This document shows, in pieces, positions 1,871 through 17,963 of a stretch of DNA of 64,000 bases. The stretch's first letter is position 1. The number at the start of each line of letters is the position of its first letter. Made by a program: the position numbers and the translations under genes. Under the pieces are notes generated by a model. The model was not told the origin of the DNA, did not search any database, and saw nothing but the letters and a program-made list of their open reading frames with translations. Source of the stretch: Colwellia sp. Arc7-D (GTDB lineage: Bacteria > Pseudomonadota > Gammaproteobacteria > Enterobacterales > Alteromonadaceae); the NCBI RefSeq assembly GCF_003061515.1, contig NZ_CP028924.1:1984001-2048000 (forward strand), given 5' to 3'.

Positions 1871-2251
1871 ATGAGTCAAACAAGTATTAAAGGTTTCCCC
1901 AAGTTAAAATCTAATCCCAGTAAGTTAAAAACATTTCTAAGTATCGCATTAGTTTGCTCTCCCTTTTATACAAATGCCATTGAGTTTTGTACAGTTCCTT
2001 CGCAAGCGGGTGAATGGGATATAATTGATGATGGGAATACTAATATAAGTGCTATTTTTCCTGTAGGTGATACGGCAACCACTATGGATGCTGTTAATCA
2101 AGTTTCATTTAAAATCATTCATGAATATGCAGGAGATCTTCAAGCTAACCTAACGACACCTGGCGGGAGTAATATTCAGTTATTTACTTTAGGGAGTCCC
2201 TCAAATTGTAGCGGGCAGATTATAATGTCAACTTTAGGGATGATGCAGTAG
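1871..2251 (+). pseudogene. N-terminal fragment of giant surface protein, frameshifted
   Basis: These 126 codons form the natural start of the protein encoded by the 7.9-kb frame that follows. The ATG at 1871 has GGAG seven bases upstream. The product opens with a basic stretch and a hydrophobic signal peptide ending YTNA, then the first half of a P-domain (the subtilisin/proprotein-convertase accessory domain), including DLQANLTTPGG and a Cys in SNCSG. The frame stops at TAG 2249-2251. The same domain continues at once in the next frame ([11 protein letters not shown] from 2224). Going from this frame to the next requires re-reading one base between 2212 and 2248, so the DNA appears to lack one base relative to an intact gene. 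It may be a real mutation or a sequencing error. Confidence 0.75.
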
Positions 2252-5200
2252 CTGGCCCTATTCTAGTTGATGATCCTGGTGGTGATGACACCGTATGTAA
2301 TTCAGCTGCAACAACAAGATCTGCTGCAGTTACTGGCACTGGGGGTACTGGTAGTCCATTTGTGTTTACACCAACGGATTTAGTTGCTGTTCCCGCAATC
2401 GCAGGTAATGTTTTACCTCTAGATTCATTAACAAACTTGGTAGGTACACCTATAGGTACATGGAATATTTTTGTTAATGACGCTTTTAGTCAAGATGTCG
2501 GTTCTATTCGTGAAGTTTGTATCGATATTGATTACTCGTCTGCAACCTATGATATTTGGGTAAGTAAAAATAATACTTGTTCAGATCAAGTTGACAATTT
2601 AAGCTTTGTTCAGGGAGAAACTGGTTATATTTGCTATGAATTATCTAATCAGGGCACACAAACATGGGAGTTAATTTCTGCAGATAATAGTAACAACCAT
2701 TTAGCAGACTTATCGGCATTAGAGGGTGATTATGCAATAAAAAATGCACCTGGTGATTCAAAAGTTTTTGTACAATCTTTCAAAGCAGGCCAAGCGCTAA
2801 CACCCGTTGGTACTTCTACATTGACAGGGGCTGTAACGGTTCGTGGTACTGACACTGTATTCACTTCGGCTGACTCATTAACTACTGACGAAACTATAGA
2901 TATAACTGTTACAGCTGTTCCTCCAACAGTTGCGGTTACGCTTGATGACACTGACTTAATTGCAGGTGAAACTGCTTTAGTAACTTTTAGTTTTAATGAA
3001 GAAGTTGTAGGATTTGATGTTAGCGATGTTACGTCACCAAATGGTGTTTTGAGCAACTTTATCGTAGATCCATCTGACCCTACTATTTATACTGCAACAT
3101 TTACTCCAACTGAAGATATAGAAGATGCAACAAATACCATAGATGTTGGTTCTGGGTATCAAGATTTAGATTCAAACTCTGGGAGCTCTGCCAGTTCACC
3201 AAACTACACTATAGAAACTTTAGCACCTATTGTTGCTATAAGTAGCGCCCCTAATGTTAATGCAACCAATGCAGGTTCTTACCCTGTAAGCGGTACATGT
3301 ACAACTGGAGATGGTCTAGTCACCGTTGCAATTGCTGGAGCTACACCTGCTAGTCAAACAGTAAGCTGTTCTGGAACTGGTACGTGGAACGCAACATTTG
3401 ATGTCAGTGCGATCGCTGATGGTACTGATGTTATTTCCGCAGATGCAAGCCAAACAGATACTGCGGGTAATACTGGTAATGCTACTCAGGTAAAAGCAAA
3501 TAAAGATATCGTAGCACCTACAGTTGCTATTAATACATTAAATGATGCCAACGCATCTAATTCAAGTGCATATCCAATAACGGGCAGTTGTTCTATTGGT
3601 GATGGCAATGTTACGGTATTTGTTGCTGGTGCAACACCAGCGAATCAAGCTGTAACATGTACTGCAGCTGGTACTTGGACTGCAACTTTTGATGTAAGTG
3701 CCATTGCTGATGGCAGCAATGCCATTATTGCTGATGCAATGCAAACAGATGCCTCGGGTAACAGTGGCAGTGCGACACAAGTAACAGCGGATAAAGATGT
3801 AGTTGCACCCAATGTAGTGATTAACGCTTTAAATGATGCAAATGCAACCAATTCATCGGCATATGGTGTAACCGGAACTTGTACGATAAATGATGGTGAT
3901 GTGACTGTTTCGATTGTTGGCGCAACACCGAGTTCTCAAGCGGTAACTTGTACTGCAGCTGGTACATGGACGGCGACTTTTAATGTAAGCTCCATTGCAG
4001 ATGGCGACAATGTCGTTGTTGCAAATGCAATGCAAACTGACAATTCTGGTAATACCGATAGCGCTACACAATTAACCGCTGATAAAGACACATCTGTACC
4101 TGTAGTTACGGTTGACCCCTTAGTTGAAGTAAATGCAGCTAATGTTGCTACTTACCCTGTAAGCGGAACCTGTAGTATTGGCGATGGTAATGTTGCTGTA
4201 ATGTTGCCTGGTGCGAGTCCAGCTAGTCAGAGTGTTGTCTGTAATCCTGATGGTACTTGGACGGCGACTTTCGATGTAAGTGCCATTGCCGATGGTGCAG
4301 ATAGCATTGTAGTTAACGCCAGCCAAACAGATGCTTCAGGAAACACAACTAGTACAGCAAACCAAACAAGTGATAAAGACAGCACTCTTCCTGTTATTGC
4401 TATCAACACTTTAGTAGATGGTAATATTGTTAACAGAACGAGTTATCCTGTAAACGGAACATGTACTATAGGTGACGGTAATGTGACGGTGAATATTGTT
4501 GGTGCTACCCCTAGTACCCAATCGGTAGCCTGTAATCCAGATGGAACTTGGAGTTCAACGTTTGATGTTAGTGCTATAGCAGATGGCGCAGACGTAATTG
4601 TTGCTGATGCTAGTCAAACGGATTCATTTGGTAATGTCGGTAATGCAGTGCAAGAATCTGCTAACAAAGATGAAGACCAGCCTATTGTTTCTATTTTAAA
4701 TGCTCCTGTGACCATCAATAATAATGATTCTTTTGTACTGACCTTTGAGTTTAGTGAAGATGTTTTAAACTTTGACTTAAGCGATATCATCTTTAATAAC
4801 GCCACATTAGCTAACTTCACAGTAATTGATGGCAACACTTACACGGTTGAGGTTACACCTGATGGTGCTGGTAACGTTGATATAGGTTTACTGTTAGCGG
4901 CGGCTCAAGATTCTACTGGGAATGATACTAACGCAACAGCTGTTGAAGTTATTTATGATCAAGACAATGATGGCATAAGTGATGAAGATGAAATTGCATT
5001 AGGGCTTGATCCTACCAGCAATGATAGTGATAAAGACGGCATTCCTGATGGCACAGAAGTCGGTGATGTTAATAACCCTAACGATAGCGATTCCGATGGG
5101 ATGATTGATGCAATTGATCCTGATGACGATAACGATGGCATAGCGACAGTCAATGAAGACGCTAATCTAGATGCTGACAATAACCCTGCTACAGGTATTA

Positions 5201-8200
5201 CTGATAGTGATGGTGACGGTATACCAGACTATTTAGATACTGATTCAGATGGCGATAATATTTCAGATGCTAATGAGTCAGTGGCTACTGGTATTGATAG
5301 CGACAATGACGGTATTGATGATGCTATTGATGTAGACGAAACAGGTGGCGTTGATGCTAATGGTGATGGTGTTGATGATAATGTTGCACCAGCGAATACC
5401 GATGGCGATTTAGCACCTGATTATATTGATGTCGATAGTGATGGCGATGGTATACCTGATTATTGGGAGTCAGGAGCTTTAAATGTCGATTCTGATATGG
5501 ACGGTATTGATGATGCTTTTGACGTTGATATTACTGGCGGTTCAGATATAAATGGTGATGGTATAGATGACAATGCTACGCCTCCAAATAATGATGCTGA
5601 CACTTCTCCCGACTTTCAGGATCTCGACAGTGATAATGACGGTATCTCAGATGCAATTGAGTCTGGGGCATTAGGTATTGACACTGATGGTGATGGTATT
5701 GATGACTATTTTGACGTTGACCAAACTGGCGGAGTAGATGCCAATGGTGATGGCATTGATGATGATGTTATGCCTATTGATACTGATAATGATGGCATTC
5801 CAGATTTTCAAGACCCAGATAGTGATAATGACGGTTTACCTGATGTGATTGAAACTGGAGCGACTGGCATTGATACCGATGGTGATGGTATTGATGATGC
5901 TTTTGATGTGAACCAAACAGGTGGTGTTGATCTTGATGGTGATGGAATGGATGATAACACCAGCCCATACGCACTAGACTCAGACGGTGATGGTATTGCA
6001 GATCATTTAGATAACGATAGTGATAATGATGGTTTAAATGATGGCGTTGAAGCAGGCCTAAGTGGCAATGACACTGACGGTGATGGCATTGATGACAGTA
6101 TTGATGTAGATGAAACTGGCGGCACCGATACTAACTCTGATGGCATAGATGATGATTTTATTCCTGTAGATACTGATTCAGATGGTATACCTGATTACCT
6201 GGACCCAGATAGTGATAATGATGGTTTACCTGACACATTAGAAGGTAACAATGATACTGATATGGATGGTATTCCAGACTATCTTGACTCAGATAGCGAT
6301 GGTGACGGTATTGATGACGGTGTTGAATCTGGCGCTACGGGTATGGACAGCGATAATGATGGTATAGATGACGCCTTTGATGTTGATGAAACCGGTGGTA
6401 CTGATGCTAATAACGATGGTGTCGATGACAATATTGCTTTACCTGATAGTGATGAAGATGGCAGACCAGACTTCCAAGACAGTGATGTAGACACTGATGG
6501 AGATGGTATTCCTGATGTTGTAGAAGGTAATGGTGACATGGATGGTGATGGTATCCCTAACTATCTAGACCTAGATTCTGATGGTGATGGCATTAATGAT
6601 GCTTCAGAAGGAGCGATTGACTCAGATAGTGATGGAATACCTGATTACTTAGACCTAGATTCTGACGGCGATGGTATCAGTGATACATTGGAAGGAAATA
6701 GCGATAATGATGGTGATGGAATCCCTAATTATTTAGACCTTGATTCCGATGGTGATGGTATCAGTGATGCAGATGAAGGTAATGTTGACAGTGATGGCGA
6801 TGGTATTCCTGATTATCTAGACCTAGATTCTGACGGCGACGGTATTAGTGATGCAGATGAAGGTAATGGTGATGCTGATGGCGATGGTATTCCTGATTAT
6901 CTAGATCAAGACTCTGACGGTGACGGTATTAGTGATGCTGAAGAAGGTAATGGTGATTCTGATGGTGATGGTATTCCTGACTATTTAGACGGTGACTCTG
7001 ATGGTGATGGCATCAACGATGCAGACGAGGGGAATGGTGATACTGATGGCGATGGTATTCCTGACTATTTAGATGGTGACTCTGATGGTGATGGTATTAG
7101 CGATGCTGTTGAAGGATCAGGAGATAGTGATGGCGATGGTACGCCTGACTACTTAGACACTAGCCTAGATGAAGATGGCGATGGCATTCCAGATATTGTT
7201 GAAGGTACAGGTGATGATGATATGGATGGAATTCCTAATTATCTTGATACCGATTCAGATAACGATGGCATTGTTGATGGTTTTGAAGCGGGCAATAGCG
7301 GTCTCGATACCGATGGTGATGGCATTGATGATAGCTTTGATGTTGATCAAACGGGTGGCCAAGATGCAAACGGTGATGGTATTGATGACGATATAGTACC
7401 AACTGATACTGACAATGATGGTATTGCAGATTATATCGATTTAGATAGCGATAATGAAGGTGTTCCAGATGTAGTCGAATCGCAATTAAACATAGTTGAT
7501 ACTGATGGCGATGGTATTGAGGACCAATATGATGTAGATGCTACGGGTGGTGTTGATACTGATGGTGATGGTATAGATGATGCGTTCGATGTAGATGCAA
7601 CGGGTGGTTTTGATGCTGACGGTGATGGCATTGATGATGCAACGCTTATATTTACAGACACCGATGGTGACGGGTTAGCCGATTATTTAGACCAAGATAG
7701 TGATAATGATGGTATCAGCGACAGTGTCGAAAGTGATATTAGTGGACAAGATGTTGACATGGATGGAATTGATGATGCATTCGATATCGACTTTACTGGT
7801 GGTATGGATGCTAACAATGACGGTATAGATGATAGCGTTAACTTAACCGATACTGATGGTGACGGCATTATTGATATGCATGATCTAGACAGCGATAACG
7901 ATGGCTTACTTGATACTCAAGAAGCCGGTGTTGTTGACGACAATGGTGATGGTTTTGCTGATGATACTAGTGTGTTGATCACAGATCCGATTGATACAGA
8001 TGGCGATGGTATCTCTGATTATCGTGATTTAGACAGTGATAACGATGGCATCTTCGACATTGTGGGCACACCAGGAGCTGGTTTAGATATAAATAATGAC
8101 GGCATGATTGACCCCACAGATGATATTGACGGTGATGGTATTTATGACAGTTACGACGCTAACCCTGGAGGGCGTGGTACCAGCCCAGGAATCGATCCTG

Positions 8201-10071
8201 ATGGGGATGGTATACCATCGCATATTGATAAAGATGATGATAACGATGGTATATCTGATGTTGTAGAAGGTGTAGGCGATAGTGATGGAGATGGTATTCC
8301 AGACTATTTAGATGTTGATAGTGATAACGATGGCTTACCTGATTCATTTGAAACTAATAGGCCACTACCGACAGGAATGGATTCAGACGCTGATGGTATC
8401 GATGATGCATTTGATGTAGATGTAACAGGTGGTATAGATAGCGATGGTGATGGTATTGATGATGTTTTTACTATCATAGATACCGATAATGACGGTATTC
8501 CTGATTATCTTGATCTAGATTCTGATGGTGATGGTATCAAAGATAGCCAAGAGCAGGTGCTTATTGTACTAAGTGGAGTTGACAGTGATAACGACGGTAT
8601 CGATGATGCTATAGATGTAGACTTTACCCTTGGAACAGATGCAAATGGTGATGGCATTGATGACAATTCACTTGATTTACTAGATATAGATGGAGATGGA
8701 GTGCCTAACTTTAGAGACATTGATAGTGATGGAGACGGAATAAACGATGCTACTGAAGGTAATGTAGACACTGATGGTGATGGAATCCCAGACTATAAAG
8801 ATATTGATAGTGATGGTGATGGCGTACCTGACAGCCAAGAAAATGGAGACTTCAACAATGACGGTATTAATGACAGCCTGCAAGAACCTCGTCAAGTGGA
8901 GTCAACATTAAAAGGTGCGGGTAGTAGTGGGTTATTAATTTTAGGAGGATTGTTCTTAATGGTAGCACTGAGTAGGAAGCGCCAATTTATGGCATTAGCT
9001 TTATTAGTATCGATAAGTGTATCTGGCCAAGCTAAAGACAACTGTCAAGGCCTTGAAGATGAAAGCTGCTGGTATCTTTCTGGCGGGCTTGGGATGTCTT
9101 ATCTTGACCCTAACGAAAACAATACTGGTTGGAAAACGTTTGATGACAAAGATACCGCCTTCAAACTTTATGGTGGCTATGCTTTTAATGAGCACTGGTT
9201 TGCTGAGCTAAGCTACACAGACTTAGGTGAAGCGCTATTAAGCAACCGTAACCCCAATCTTCAAGATACCTTAAAAGTAGATTATTCTGGAGTGGCTTTA
9301 CAGGCAGGTTATTGGCTCAAACCGGTTGAAGCACAATGGAACGCTTTTATCAGAGCTGGTATTTCGAAGATAGACTCTAGCAGTAATCTTGAGCAATACC
9401 ACGAGCAACTTAATAGTACCCAATTTGTCATTGGTGCAGGTATTCAATGGCGCTTTAGTGATAACTGGATGACAAGGTTAGAAGTCGACAGTTATGATAA
9501 AGACGCGTTTTTCTTGGGGTTAAGTATTAGCCGATTTTTCGGTGACAGTAACGCCAGAAAATCGACAGCTATGACTAAGCCAACTCCTCGACCTGAGGTG
9601 ATATCTGAACCCATTCCTGTGGTTGCTCCAGTAAGGAACCAAGATGTAGATGCTGACGGTGTACTGAATAAATTAGATAAATGTCCAGACACATCAAAAG
9701 GACTGGTCGTGAATGAACAAGGTTGCCCAGTCGCACAAAAAGTGATTATTCAGTTTGATAATAATTCAACGGTTATTGGAGATAAATTTAAACTACAAAT
9801 TGATGATATAGCAGCTCAATTACGCCTTTATAAAGAAGTTAATATTACTTTAGAAGGGCATACTGACTGGCGCGGAAAGCAGACATTAAATCAGCCTCTG
9901 TCTGAGTCAAGAGCACGCGCCGTTGCTGAAGCTTTAATGCAGGCCACTAATTTACCTGAATCTGCTTTCACAATAATGGGTCATGGAGAACTTAAACCCA
10001 TTGATAGCAATAAAACAGAAATTGGTCGATATAATAATCGCAGAGTTGAAGTGCTTATTAAAGGCCATTAA
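2212..10071 (+). CDS. Giant calcium-binding TSP3-repeat / OmpA surface protein
   Basis: With the upstream fragment this makes a protein of about 2,730 residues; alone it could start only at weak sites such as GTG 2362. Domain order by nucleotide: rest of a P-domain (2212-2560); CARDB-like and Ig-like segments (2560-3215); five Ig-like repeats of about 97 residues (3217-4677); another Ig-like domain (4680-4950); about 1,300 residues of thrombospondin type 3 repeats, [12 protein letters not shown] type, with calcium-binding Asp ladders (4960-8880). A sorting-tail-like segment follows: GAGSSG, hydrophobic stretch, SRKR (8914-8982). Next comes a signal-peptide-like run (8983-9033), an OmpA-like beta barrel (9060-9545), one more TSP3 unit (about 9640-9730) and an OmpA peptidoglycan-binding domain with the TDWRG...N..LS..RA..V pattern (9735-10071). 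It is probably an outer-membrane-anchored adhesin or matrix protein. The 7.9-kb frame has no other break. Confidence 0.8.
3217..4677 (+). repeat. Five Ig-like domain repeats of about 291-294 bp
   Basis: Five consecutive copies start near 3217, 3511, 3801, 4090 and 4384. Each encodes a domain opening with a Pro-[VT]-V-A-I-like strand, a YPVSGTC motif, a DG.VTV strand, [18 protein letters not shown] and ending in NKD or DKD. Two Cys per copy could form a disulfide outside the cell. Copies differ enough at DNA level to be old duplications. Confidence 0.85.
6488..7190 (+). repeat. 84-bp tandem repeats inside the TSP3 region
   Basis: Within the calcium-binding region, a 28-residue unit (G-N/[22 protein letters not shown]) is repeated about eight times. 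DNA identity between neighbouring copies is high. This is the most homogeneous part of the TSP3 region and the likeliest place for copy-number change or assembly collapse. Confidence 0.8.
8959..10071 (+). other. Possible internal start for the OmpA part
   Basis: AGGAGG at 8943-8948 lies ten bases before an in-frame ATG at 8959. From that ATG the product opens [10 protein letters not shown], a hydrophobic core and SGQA followed by KDN, a textbook signal peptide. A complete eight-strand OmpA barrel and an OmpA C-terminal domain follow (370 residues). The OmpA part could therefore be made separately as well as being fused to the giant protein. AGGAGG is also simply the codon pair for Gly-Gly, so coincidence is possible. 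Confidence 0.4.
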
Positions 10072-17611: not shown

Positions 17612-17613
17612 AT

Positions 17614-17963
17614 GTACAGGATGTACGGTATTCGCGGTTGCATGGATGCAAAAGAGCGTGCATGTACAGGATGTACGGTATTCGCGATTGCATGGATGCA
17701 AAAGAGCGTGCATGTACAGGATGTACGGTATTCGCGATTGCATGGATGCAAAAGAGCGTACATGTACAGGATGTACGGTATTCGCGGTAGCATGGATGCA
17801 AAAGAGCGTGCATGTACAGGATGTACGGTATTCGCGGTAGCATGGATGCAAAAGAGCTTTCATGTACAGGATGTACGGTATTCGCGGTTGCATGGATGCA
17901 AAAGAGCGTGCATTTACAGGATGTACGGTATTCGCGGCTGCATGAATACAAAAGAGTTTGAAT
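17614..17963 (+). repeat. 50-bp tandem array, seven copies, GGA-hairpin units
   Basis: Units start at 17614, 17664, 17714, 17764, 17814, 17864 and 17914. All are exactly 50 bp and nearly identical; the last is degenerate. Each intact unit holds two small hairpins on the plus strand: GTACA-GGA-TGTAC and TTGCA-TGGA-TGCAA, so a GGA is displayed in each loop. The linkers (GGTATTCGCGG, AAAGAGCG) are conserved, with changes concentrated at a few positions. There are no unique spacers. Frames run open through the array in several directions because 50 bp is not a multiple of three and the unit lacks stops; these frames do not look like proteins. CAGGATG is the repeated motif of the CsrA-binding RNA CsrB in E. 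coli. Confidence 0.92.

Follow-up and report, generated by a model that had tools for sequence, protein, structure and literature searches.

The window analysed here, a stretch of 64,000 nucleotides from Colwellia sp. Arc7-D, contains a long open frame encoding, in order, Big_12 domains, thrombospondin type 3 (TSP_3) repeats, a sorting-tail-like segment, a putative internal signal peptide, an OmpA-like barrel and an OmpA domain (Table 1). The repeats are evident by sequence, and the TSP_3 model scores 20.9 bits in the long frame, against a Pfam cut-off of 25. The original prediction had placed a tail-like segment, an ATG, a signal peptide and an OmpA protein in one frame, and this arrangement was confirmed: no stop codon occurs from the GAGSSG motif through the tail helix, the SRKR cluster and the second hydrophobic segment to the end of the OmpA protein. 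SRKR is followed by 362 further in-frame residues, and the window tail is thus not at the C terminus of the protein. The same prediction had one stretch serving as a membrane helix in a long form and as a signal peptide in a short one; the sequence instead resolves into two separate hydrophobic segments connected by a short basic loop, and it is the second that would act as signal peptide in both forms.

Table 1 Features of the fused gene and of the frame upstream of it (window coordinates)
Feature	Position	Strand	Evidence or remark
Upstream ORF with signal peptide and first part of P_proprotein domain	1871..2251	+	PF01483, 22.0 bits (cut-off 21)
Long open frame	2212..10071	+	Listed ORF runs from GTG 2362 to stop 10071
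Strongly conserved passenger end, just 5′ of the tail	8839..8883	+	15 residues; alignments of relatives
GAGSSG motif	8914..8931	+	Sequence; Gly motif also in relatives; presumed rhombosortase-type cut site
First hydrophobic segment (tail helix)	8932..8970	+	13 residues; same segment delimited in homologue P0001
AGGAGG (8943–8948) and in-frame ATG (8959–8961), ten bases apart	8943..8961	+	Possible internal start
SRKR basic loop between the two helices	8971..8982	+	Tail end and putative signal-peptide n-region
Second hydrophobic segment (putative internal signal peptide)	8986..9033	+	14 residues plus QA; sequence and contrast with the first helix
Eight-stranded OmpA-like outer-membrane barrel	9070..9540	+	Pfam, AlphaFold2, Foldseek
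Single thrombospondin type 3 repeat between barrel and OmpA domain	9637..9699	+	20.7 bits, under the Pfam cut-off of 25
OmpA peptidoglycan-binding domain	9754..10041	+	PF00691, 61.3 bits

In the short form beginning at ATG 8959, the barrel matches OMP_b-brl (PF13505, 56.7 bits) and OmpA_membrane (PF01389, 38.1 bits). The 410 residues from position 8839 onwards were modelled with AlphaFold2 from an input of five sequences (mean pLDDT 58.9, but below 50 for tail, second segment and linker). The model contains eight barrel strands, with block pLDDT values of 58–86 over the barrel. Foldseek comparison of this barrel with solved structures returned OmpA barrels (1bxw, TMt 0.73; 1qjp, 0.76), together with weak, low-ranked matches to autotransporter barrels. 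The OmpA half has the order of TraB (barrel, TSP3 and OmpA, with the TSP3 repeat under the Pfam cut-off). Two more specific identities were considered and rejected on model scores: the OmpA half reaches 58 bits with the TraB model (NF033763), the cut-off of which is 700, and 54.9 bits with that of the sortase-associated OmpA protein PdsO (TIGR03789), the cut-off of which is 152.2.

The junction recurs widely in relatives. In a family-level search, 69 of 196 genomes gave matches at E ≤ 1e-20, which in many cases covered no more than the OmpA part; the junction was found in frame in a congener (G163, 69% identity) and in genomes of other genera, among them G052 (45%), G108, G190, G020 and G003. 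Within the genus of the window, a match at this threshold is present in two of the eight sampled genomes, its own included, and absent from six, a patchy distribution. A scan of GTDB contigs yielded four named loci, from Colwellia polaris, a Kangiellaceae MAG, Psychrosphaera haliotis and an uncultured Oleiphilus MAG. A profile built from ten junctions and searched against 394 order-level and 369 class-level genomes matched 133 and 61 of them, respectively, at E ≤ 1e-8, many through the barrel only. The retrieved loci carry 112 distinct barrels, of which 79, from 65 genomes, are fused with two helices, one is a one-helix fusion (L138), one a fusion with no helix detected (L147), 13 are split, and 18 had no upstream tail protein that we could find (17, plus L082, which has a false tail and is excluded from the split count); these loci are the better and longer matches, and their counts are not population frequencies. 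Because the same one-frame junction occurs in dozens of distant relatives, it lies far beyond chance. The view that a tail-sorted surface protein has been joined to an OmpA partner is supported, and the split versions that the original prediction envisaged exist in the 13 barrels for which the same two parts are separate genes. Profile rows with one stop were also considered as split genes and rejected, as most of those inspected proved to be barrel-only fused proteins with their own terminal stop inside the match.

A protein search with the long ORF gave a similar picture. The barrel is present in 117 of the best 120 of 129 proteins (P0040, P0105 and P0108, which lack it, were left out), and in 112 of these 117 listed long homologues two hydrophobic segments directly precede it. 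Four of the 117 have one segment only (P0056, P0057, P0064 and P0102), which looks as if the start of the tail and the end of the signal peptide had merged, and P0071 has none. The passenger domains vary widely among the listed homologues. This search, whose length filter lets through nothing but long proteins, is uninformative on the share of split genes.

Fused and split forms coexist within the group. In G020, a fused and a split copy adjoin each other, the split one ending in ...GSGTFGSILLGILATLGLRRRQTKK, followed by a stop and then by the barrel gene, and both forms occur in five genomes (G020, G422, G698, G716 and G765). On a tree of 87 barrels, built by a quick method and with 25 of its 84 inner branches starred, the fused and split states change at least nine times, and the starred branches force six changes for the fused label (three labels compared), which indicates that fusion or splitting, in either direction, has occurred several times. 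The clade of nine barrels that includes the window is fused throughout (SH-aLRT support 90, not starred), which speaks against the original suggestion that a local loss of a stop codon produced the fusion; a recent stop loss is likewise ruled out by fused relatives that span genera and orders.

We next consider the first helix as a sorting tag. The window tail has the tripartite pattern of a Gly/Ser motif, a hydrophobic helix and a basic cluster, and a Gly motif is present in 102 of the 112 listed homologues. The NCBIfam GlyGly-CTERM model (TIGR03501, cut-off 15.5 bits) gave no match for the window's own tail, which exceeds the cut-off of no tag model and matches PFE-CTERM and PEP-CTERM below theirs. 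When the internal tails of the 79 fused genes were scanned alone, 32 matched GlyGly-CTERM at E ≤ 0.022, about the 15.5-bit cut-off, and 47 did not, as against none of the 79 second-helix segments delimited alike as a control; the internal tail of Psychrosphaera haliotis (L053) reaches 22.3 bits. The original description of the tail as GlyGly-CTERM-like therefore holds for its tripartite pattern and for the tails of relatives that match the model, and fails for the window tail itself when set against the NCBIfam model. JDVT-CTERM matches four of the 79 genome tails, and these, together with the Gly-Cys/Asp-Pro tails described below, make it seem that more than one type of tag is involved. MYXO-CTERM (17 members) and some other models also match tails at E ≤ 0.022, a threshold that is not their own cut-off.

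The genome of the window, in which the original prediction had proposed looking for a rhombosortase, contains one (173.3 bits, cut-off 84), as well as two ordinary GlyGly-CTERM proteins and GspD. It also encodes a 3,794-residue TSP3 paralogue (G000:C1:961000-979000; L114 327–11711) with the tail at its end and no barrel fusion. In the class sample, a rhombosortase is present in 26 of 26 fused genomes, against a base of 126 of 369 over the cut-off (Fisher 1e-13), and in the order sample in 30 of 31, against a base of 234 of 394 at E ≤ 1e-20 (Fisher 1e-6), statistics that ignore the kinship of the genomes and count the window's genome in both samples; in the family sample the figure is seven of seven. 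In the fused genome G293, a 40.7-bit rhomboid match was found and nothing stronger. In G861 (L155 3807–6529), the rhombosortase open frame lies directly 3′ of the fused gene and overlaps it by 7 bases, and in G840 (L154 2–4274) the rhombosortase open frame overlaps a gene with a GlyGly tail, with a separate, convergent OmpA-type gene nearby; these neighbours are possible dedicated protease–substrate pairs.

The sequence properties of the second helix resemble those of a signal peptide. The loop that precedes it in the 112 listed homologues has a median length of 8 residues (range 3–29), contains at least two Arg or Lys residues in 111 and has more basic than acidic residues in all 112. A signal peptidase I-like site with a hydrophilic stretch follows the second helix in 98 of the 112 and the first helix in 40 (Fisher 6e-16; the same listed proteins), and a strict A-x-A motif follows the second in 51 and the first in 10; no signal peptidase I-like site was found for 14 of the 112 second helices. 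Furthermore, a lipobox is present in eight of the 112 second helices (P0106, P0110, P0112, P0114, P0115 and P0117–P0119), which thus resemble internal lipoprotein signal peptides, and in none of the 112 first helices. The tail also differs in all eight of these proteins, where Gly-Cys and, after it, Asp-Pro precede the helix, so that tag and signal are combined in a second way. As an internal lipoprotein signal would have no evident use in a chain that is not cut there, the lipobox is the strongest single argument for cutting. The window segment itself has the features of a Sec signal peptide (an SRKRQ n-region, a 12-residue h-region and SGQA), with a predicted signal peptidase I cut after the Ala at 9031–9033, and signal peptidase I is encoded in the genome.

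What the data show is how the fused protein is built, that this layout recurs, that its second helix has the character of a signal peptide, and that it co-occurs with rhombosortase. We propose that the junction is probably a cleavage cassette within a polyprotein, from which rhombosortase and signal peptidase I would release an adhesin–barrel pair resembling TraA and TraB. The giant, adhesin-like N-terminal passenger would be exported by Sec until the tail helix stops transfer and holds it in the inner membrane; the basic loop would remain cytoplasmic, and the second helix would re-enter the membrane and send the OmpA half into the periplasm. Rhombosortase would then cut at GAGSSG, after which the passenger could receive a lipid-type anchor and reach the cell surface by type II secretion. 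Signal peptidase I would cut after SGQA (in proteins with a lipobox, signal peptidase II would act instead), and the OmpA-like barrel thus released would insert into the outer membrane, where it may act as the 1:1 partner of the passenger, as TraB does for TraA. We infer the membrane topology, both cuts, the surface display and the pairing of the two products. Several points speak against this model: the window tail and 47 of the 79 internal tails fail to match the GlyGly-CTERM model, G293 lacks a full rhombosortase match, four listed homologues have a single helix and P0071 has none, 14 of 112 second helices lack the signal peptidase I-like site, the AlphaFold2 model has no helix for the second segment, presence in the genus is patchy, and the window copy has a frame break in its 5′ part.

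The partner proposal is based on TraA and TraB of Myxococcus, because their genes overlap, the layout of TraB is similar and the two proteins form a 1:1 complex. The ORFs of traA and traB share four bases (PMC3325183), and TraB consists of a barrel, TSP3 and OmpA and binds TraA in a 1:1 complex (PMC12045341, preprint). The window group shares with this system a tag-sorted surface protein and a barrel–TSP3–OmpA partner. However, TraA and TraB are encoded by two genes and the passenger is a different one with a MYXO-CTERM tag, whereas the OmpA half of the window is far below the TraB cut-off.

Among the other readings, internal initiation is unlikely, although it is the likeliest of them: ribosomes starting at ATG 8959 would make an OmpA precursor that carries its own signal peptide, either in addition to the long form or in its place. 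AGGAGG lies ten bases before this ATG, both G163 and Colwellia polaris retain the ATG together with a GGAGG core, and P0001–P0004 retain the Met. Synonymous identity at the junction is 16 of 20 against a median of 0.56 in the comparison with C. polaris and 15 of 23 against 0.53 in that with G163, and dS is low there (0.38 and 0.62 over 36 codons); this conservation is no more than a hint. In addition, the OmpA protein would still be made despite the frame break in the 5′ part of the window gene. By contrast, AGGAGG with an ATG 5–11 bases away occurs once in the 64 kb, where 1.37 occurrences are expected by chance, and GGA-GGA at that spot also encodes a Gly-Gly pair. Moreover, an ATG in a usable place with a Shine–Dalgarno match of at least four is found in 16 of the 79 fused genes, leaving 63 without one, but in 24 of 30 separate outer-membrane protein genes; such a match also accompanies 30% of 134 background ATGs. 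Counting GTG and TTG raises the number of fused genes with a usable start to 29 of 79, and 38 of 79 have any ATG there. A Met lies in the loop of 20 of the 112 listed homologues, or 59 of 112 if the last residues of the first helix are included. The original suggestion of a separately initiated OmpA product is thus weakened, as its ribosome site and ATG are at chance level: internal initiation may add to the OmpA supply in Colwellia, and as a general route it is unlikely.

If the chain stays uncut, the two helices would form an inner-membrane hairpin that tethers both the adhesin and the OmpA half. This is the simplest reading of the topology, and the four listed homologues that lack one helix are compatible with it, yet it is distinctly improbable, given the split orthologues and the signal peptidase I-like sites and lipoboxes that close the second helix. 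An outer-membrane barrel would also be hard to square with an N-terminal tether in the inner membrane. The AlphaFold2 model has a helix for the first segment and none for the second, where pLDDT is below 50, and so is no test of a hairpin.

Very improbable, too, is an accident, whether a lost stop, an assembly error or a decaying pseudogene. Frame breaks do occur, at 2212–2251 in the window copy and within the TSP3 repeats of the G163 copy (L035 4755–4806), and the fused gene is patchy in the genus. Against this reading, the fused frame is common to most barrels at the retrieved loci and to every row of the window's clade, and long copies exist, such as one of 3,038 residues in Colwellia sp. 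6M3. Furthermore, dN/dS is 0.06–0.22 for the repeats, the barrel and the OmpA domain where it could be computed (dS was obtained for ten of twelve gene parts); for the junction alone (36 codons) the values of 0.53 and 0.27 are too noisy for use. Type V, or autotransporter-like, secretion, in which the barrel would export the N-terminal passenger, can practically be dismissed: the order of passenger and barrel and the weak Foldseek matches recall it, but the barrel is of the eight-stranded OmpA type with OmpA as its best solved matches, and two membrane helices and a signal-peptide site separate it from the passenger. The translocator barrel of a type V autotransporter has 12 strands and is fused directly to its passenger, an arrangement that the window protein does not have.

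The cleavage-cassette model has a close precedent in myxobacteria. The mBio 2025 paper on myxosortase describes, in the passages cited, internal MYXO-CTERM motifs in ORFs in rare cases, including MXAN_5598 of Myxococcus xanthus, in which the motif separates an adhesin from a barrel plus OmpA half within one ORF; its authors suggest that two genes have fused, draw a comparison with TraA plus TraB, and propose processing of the N-terminal part (PMC11980579). Like MXAN_5598, the window protein combines a large adhesin region, an internal tag, an outer-membrane barrel and an OmpA domain in one ORF. MXAN_5598 has a MYXO-CTERM tag with an invariant Cys and is paired with myxosortase, whereas the window group has GlyGly-type tails and rhombosortase and extends over many genera; the analysis of an internal signal peptide or lipobox is an addition to that case, as far as the cited passages describe it. 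The window tail resembles the substrates of the GlyGly-CTERM/rhombosortase system, including VesB of V. cholerae (PMC13393428), in its Gly/Ser motif, helix and basic cluster and in the presence of a rhombosortase in the same genome. GlyGly-CTERM was, however, described at the extreme C terminus (Haft and Varghese 2011; PMC3237569), whereas the window tail lies inside a longer protein. In the parts of the literature on rhombosortase and on GlyGly-CTERM with OmpA that were at hand, no GlyGly-CTERM tags within barrel fusions were found. The idea of an internal-tag fusion is already in print for myxobacteria.

Related arrangements exist elsewhere. An archaeal ArtA substrate, going by the title of a 2017 article by Abdul Halim, reportedly has its tripartite tag away from the C terminus; the enzyme there is an archaeosortase, as opposed to the rhombosortase here. 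FbcH, the cytochrome b/c1 polyprotein of Bradyrhizobium, has an anchor followed by an internal signal peptide and gives two products. Viral glycoprotein precursors, such as the Gn/Gc precursor of SFTS virus (PMC5113920), likewise yield two products per chain from an anchor and a following internal signal peptide. Unlike the window group, the viral precursors and FbcH involve no sorting-tag protease, and their proteins are unrelated to those of the window.

More generally, we lean towards the view that such genes, which occur in numerous gammaproteobacteria, marine and otherwise, encode a widespread and repeatedly formed class of polyproteins. In these, a tag for rhombosortase would stand back to back with an internal signal peptide, of type I or of the lipoprotein type, as a two-protease cassette, which would ensure that a giant surface adhesin and the OmpA-like anchor or partner belonging to it are made in equal amounts; 'C-terminal' tags would then be internal in a large share of such proteins. 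If so, GlyGly-CTERM tags need not be terminal, bacteria would possess a polyprotein with two dedicated membrane proteases, rhombosortase substrates would be linked to OmpA-type partners as TraA is to TraB, and a partner could be predicted for many giant adhesins. The model may also explain why the database names of these proteins range from 'OmpA family' through 'Ig-like' to 'choice-of-anchor L'.

The 5′ part of the window gene differs from that of its closest relative. The P_proprotein domain seems to be spread over two frames (1871–2360, the continuation being read by eye), and the break between them is either real or an assembly error; because of it, the full-length window product may not be made. 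Unbroken fused genes occur in Colwellia sp. 6M3, Psychrosphaera haliotis and Teredinibacter turnerae. The closest of the matches listed, the choice-of-anchor L protein of Colwellia sp. 6M3, is 97% identical over 2,328 residues, beginning at its residue 714, and the N termini differ. As the window copy starts with a P domain and the 6M3 protein with a choice-of-anchor L N terminus, the N terminus of the passenger seems to have been exchanged. Short tandem repeats lie 5′ of the gene, at 1523–1570 (14 bp, 3.4 copies) and 1671–1705 (7 bp, TTATTCC, five copies), and are possible slippage sites. Further along the window, at 17612–17956, a 50-bp tandem repeat is present in 6.9 copies with 95% matches and has open frames on both strands.
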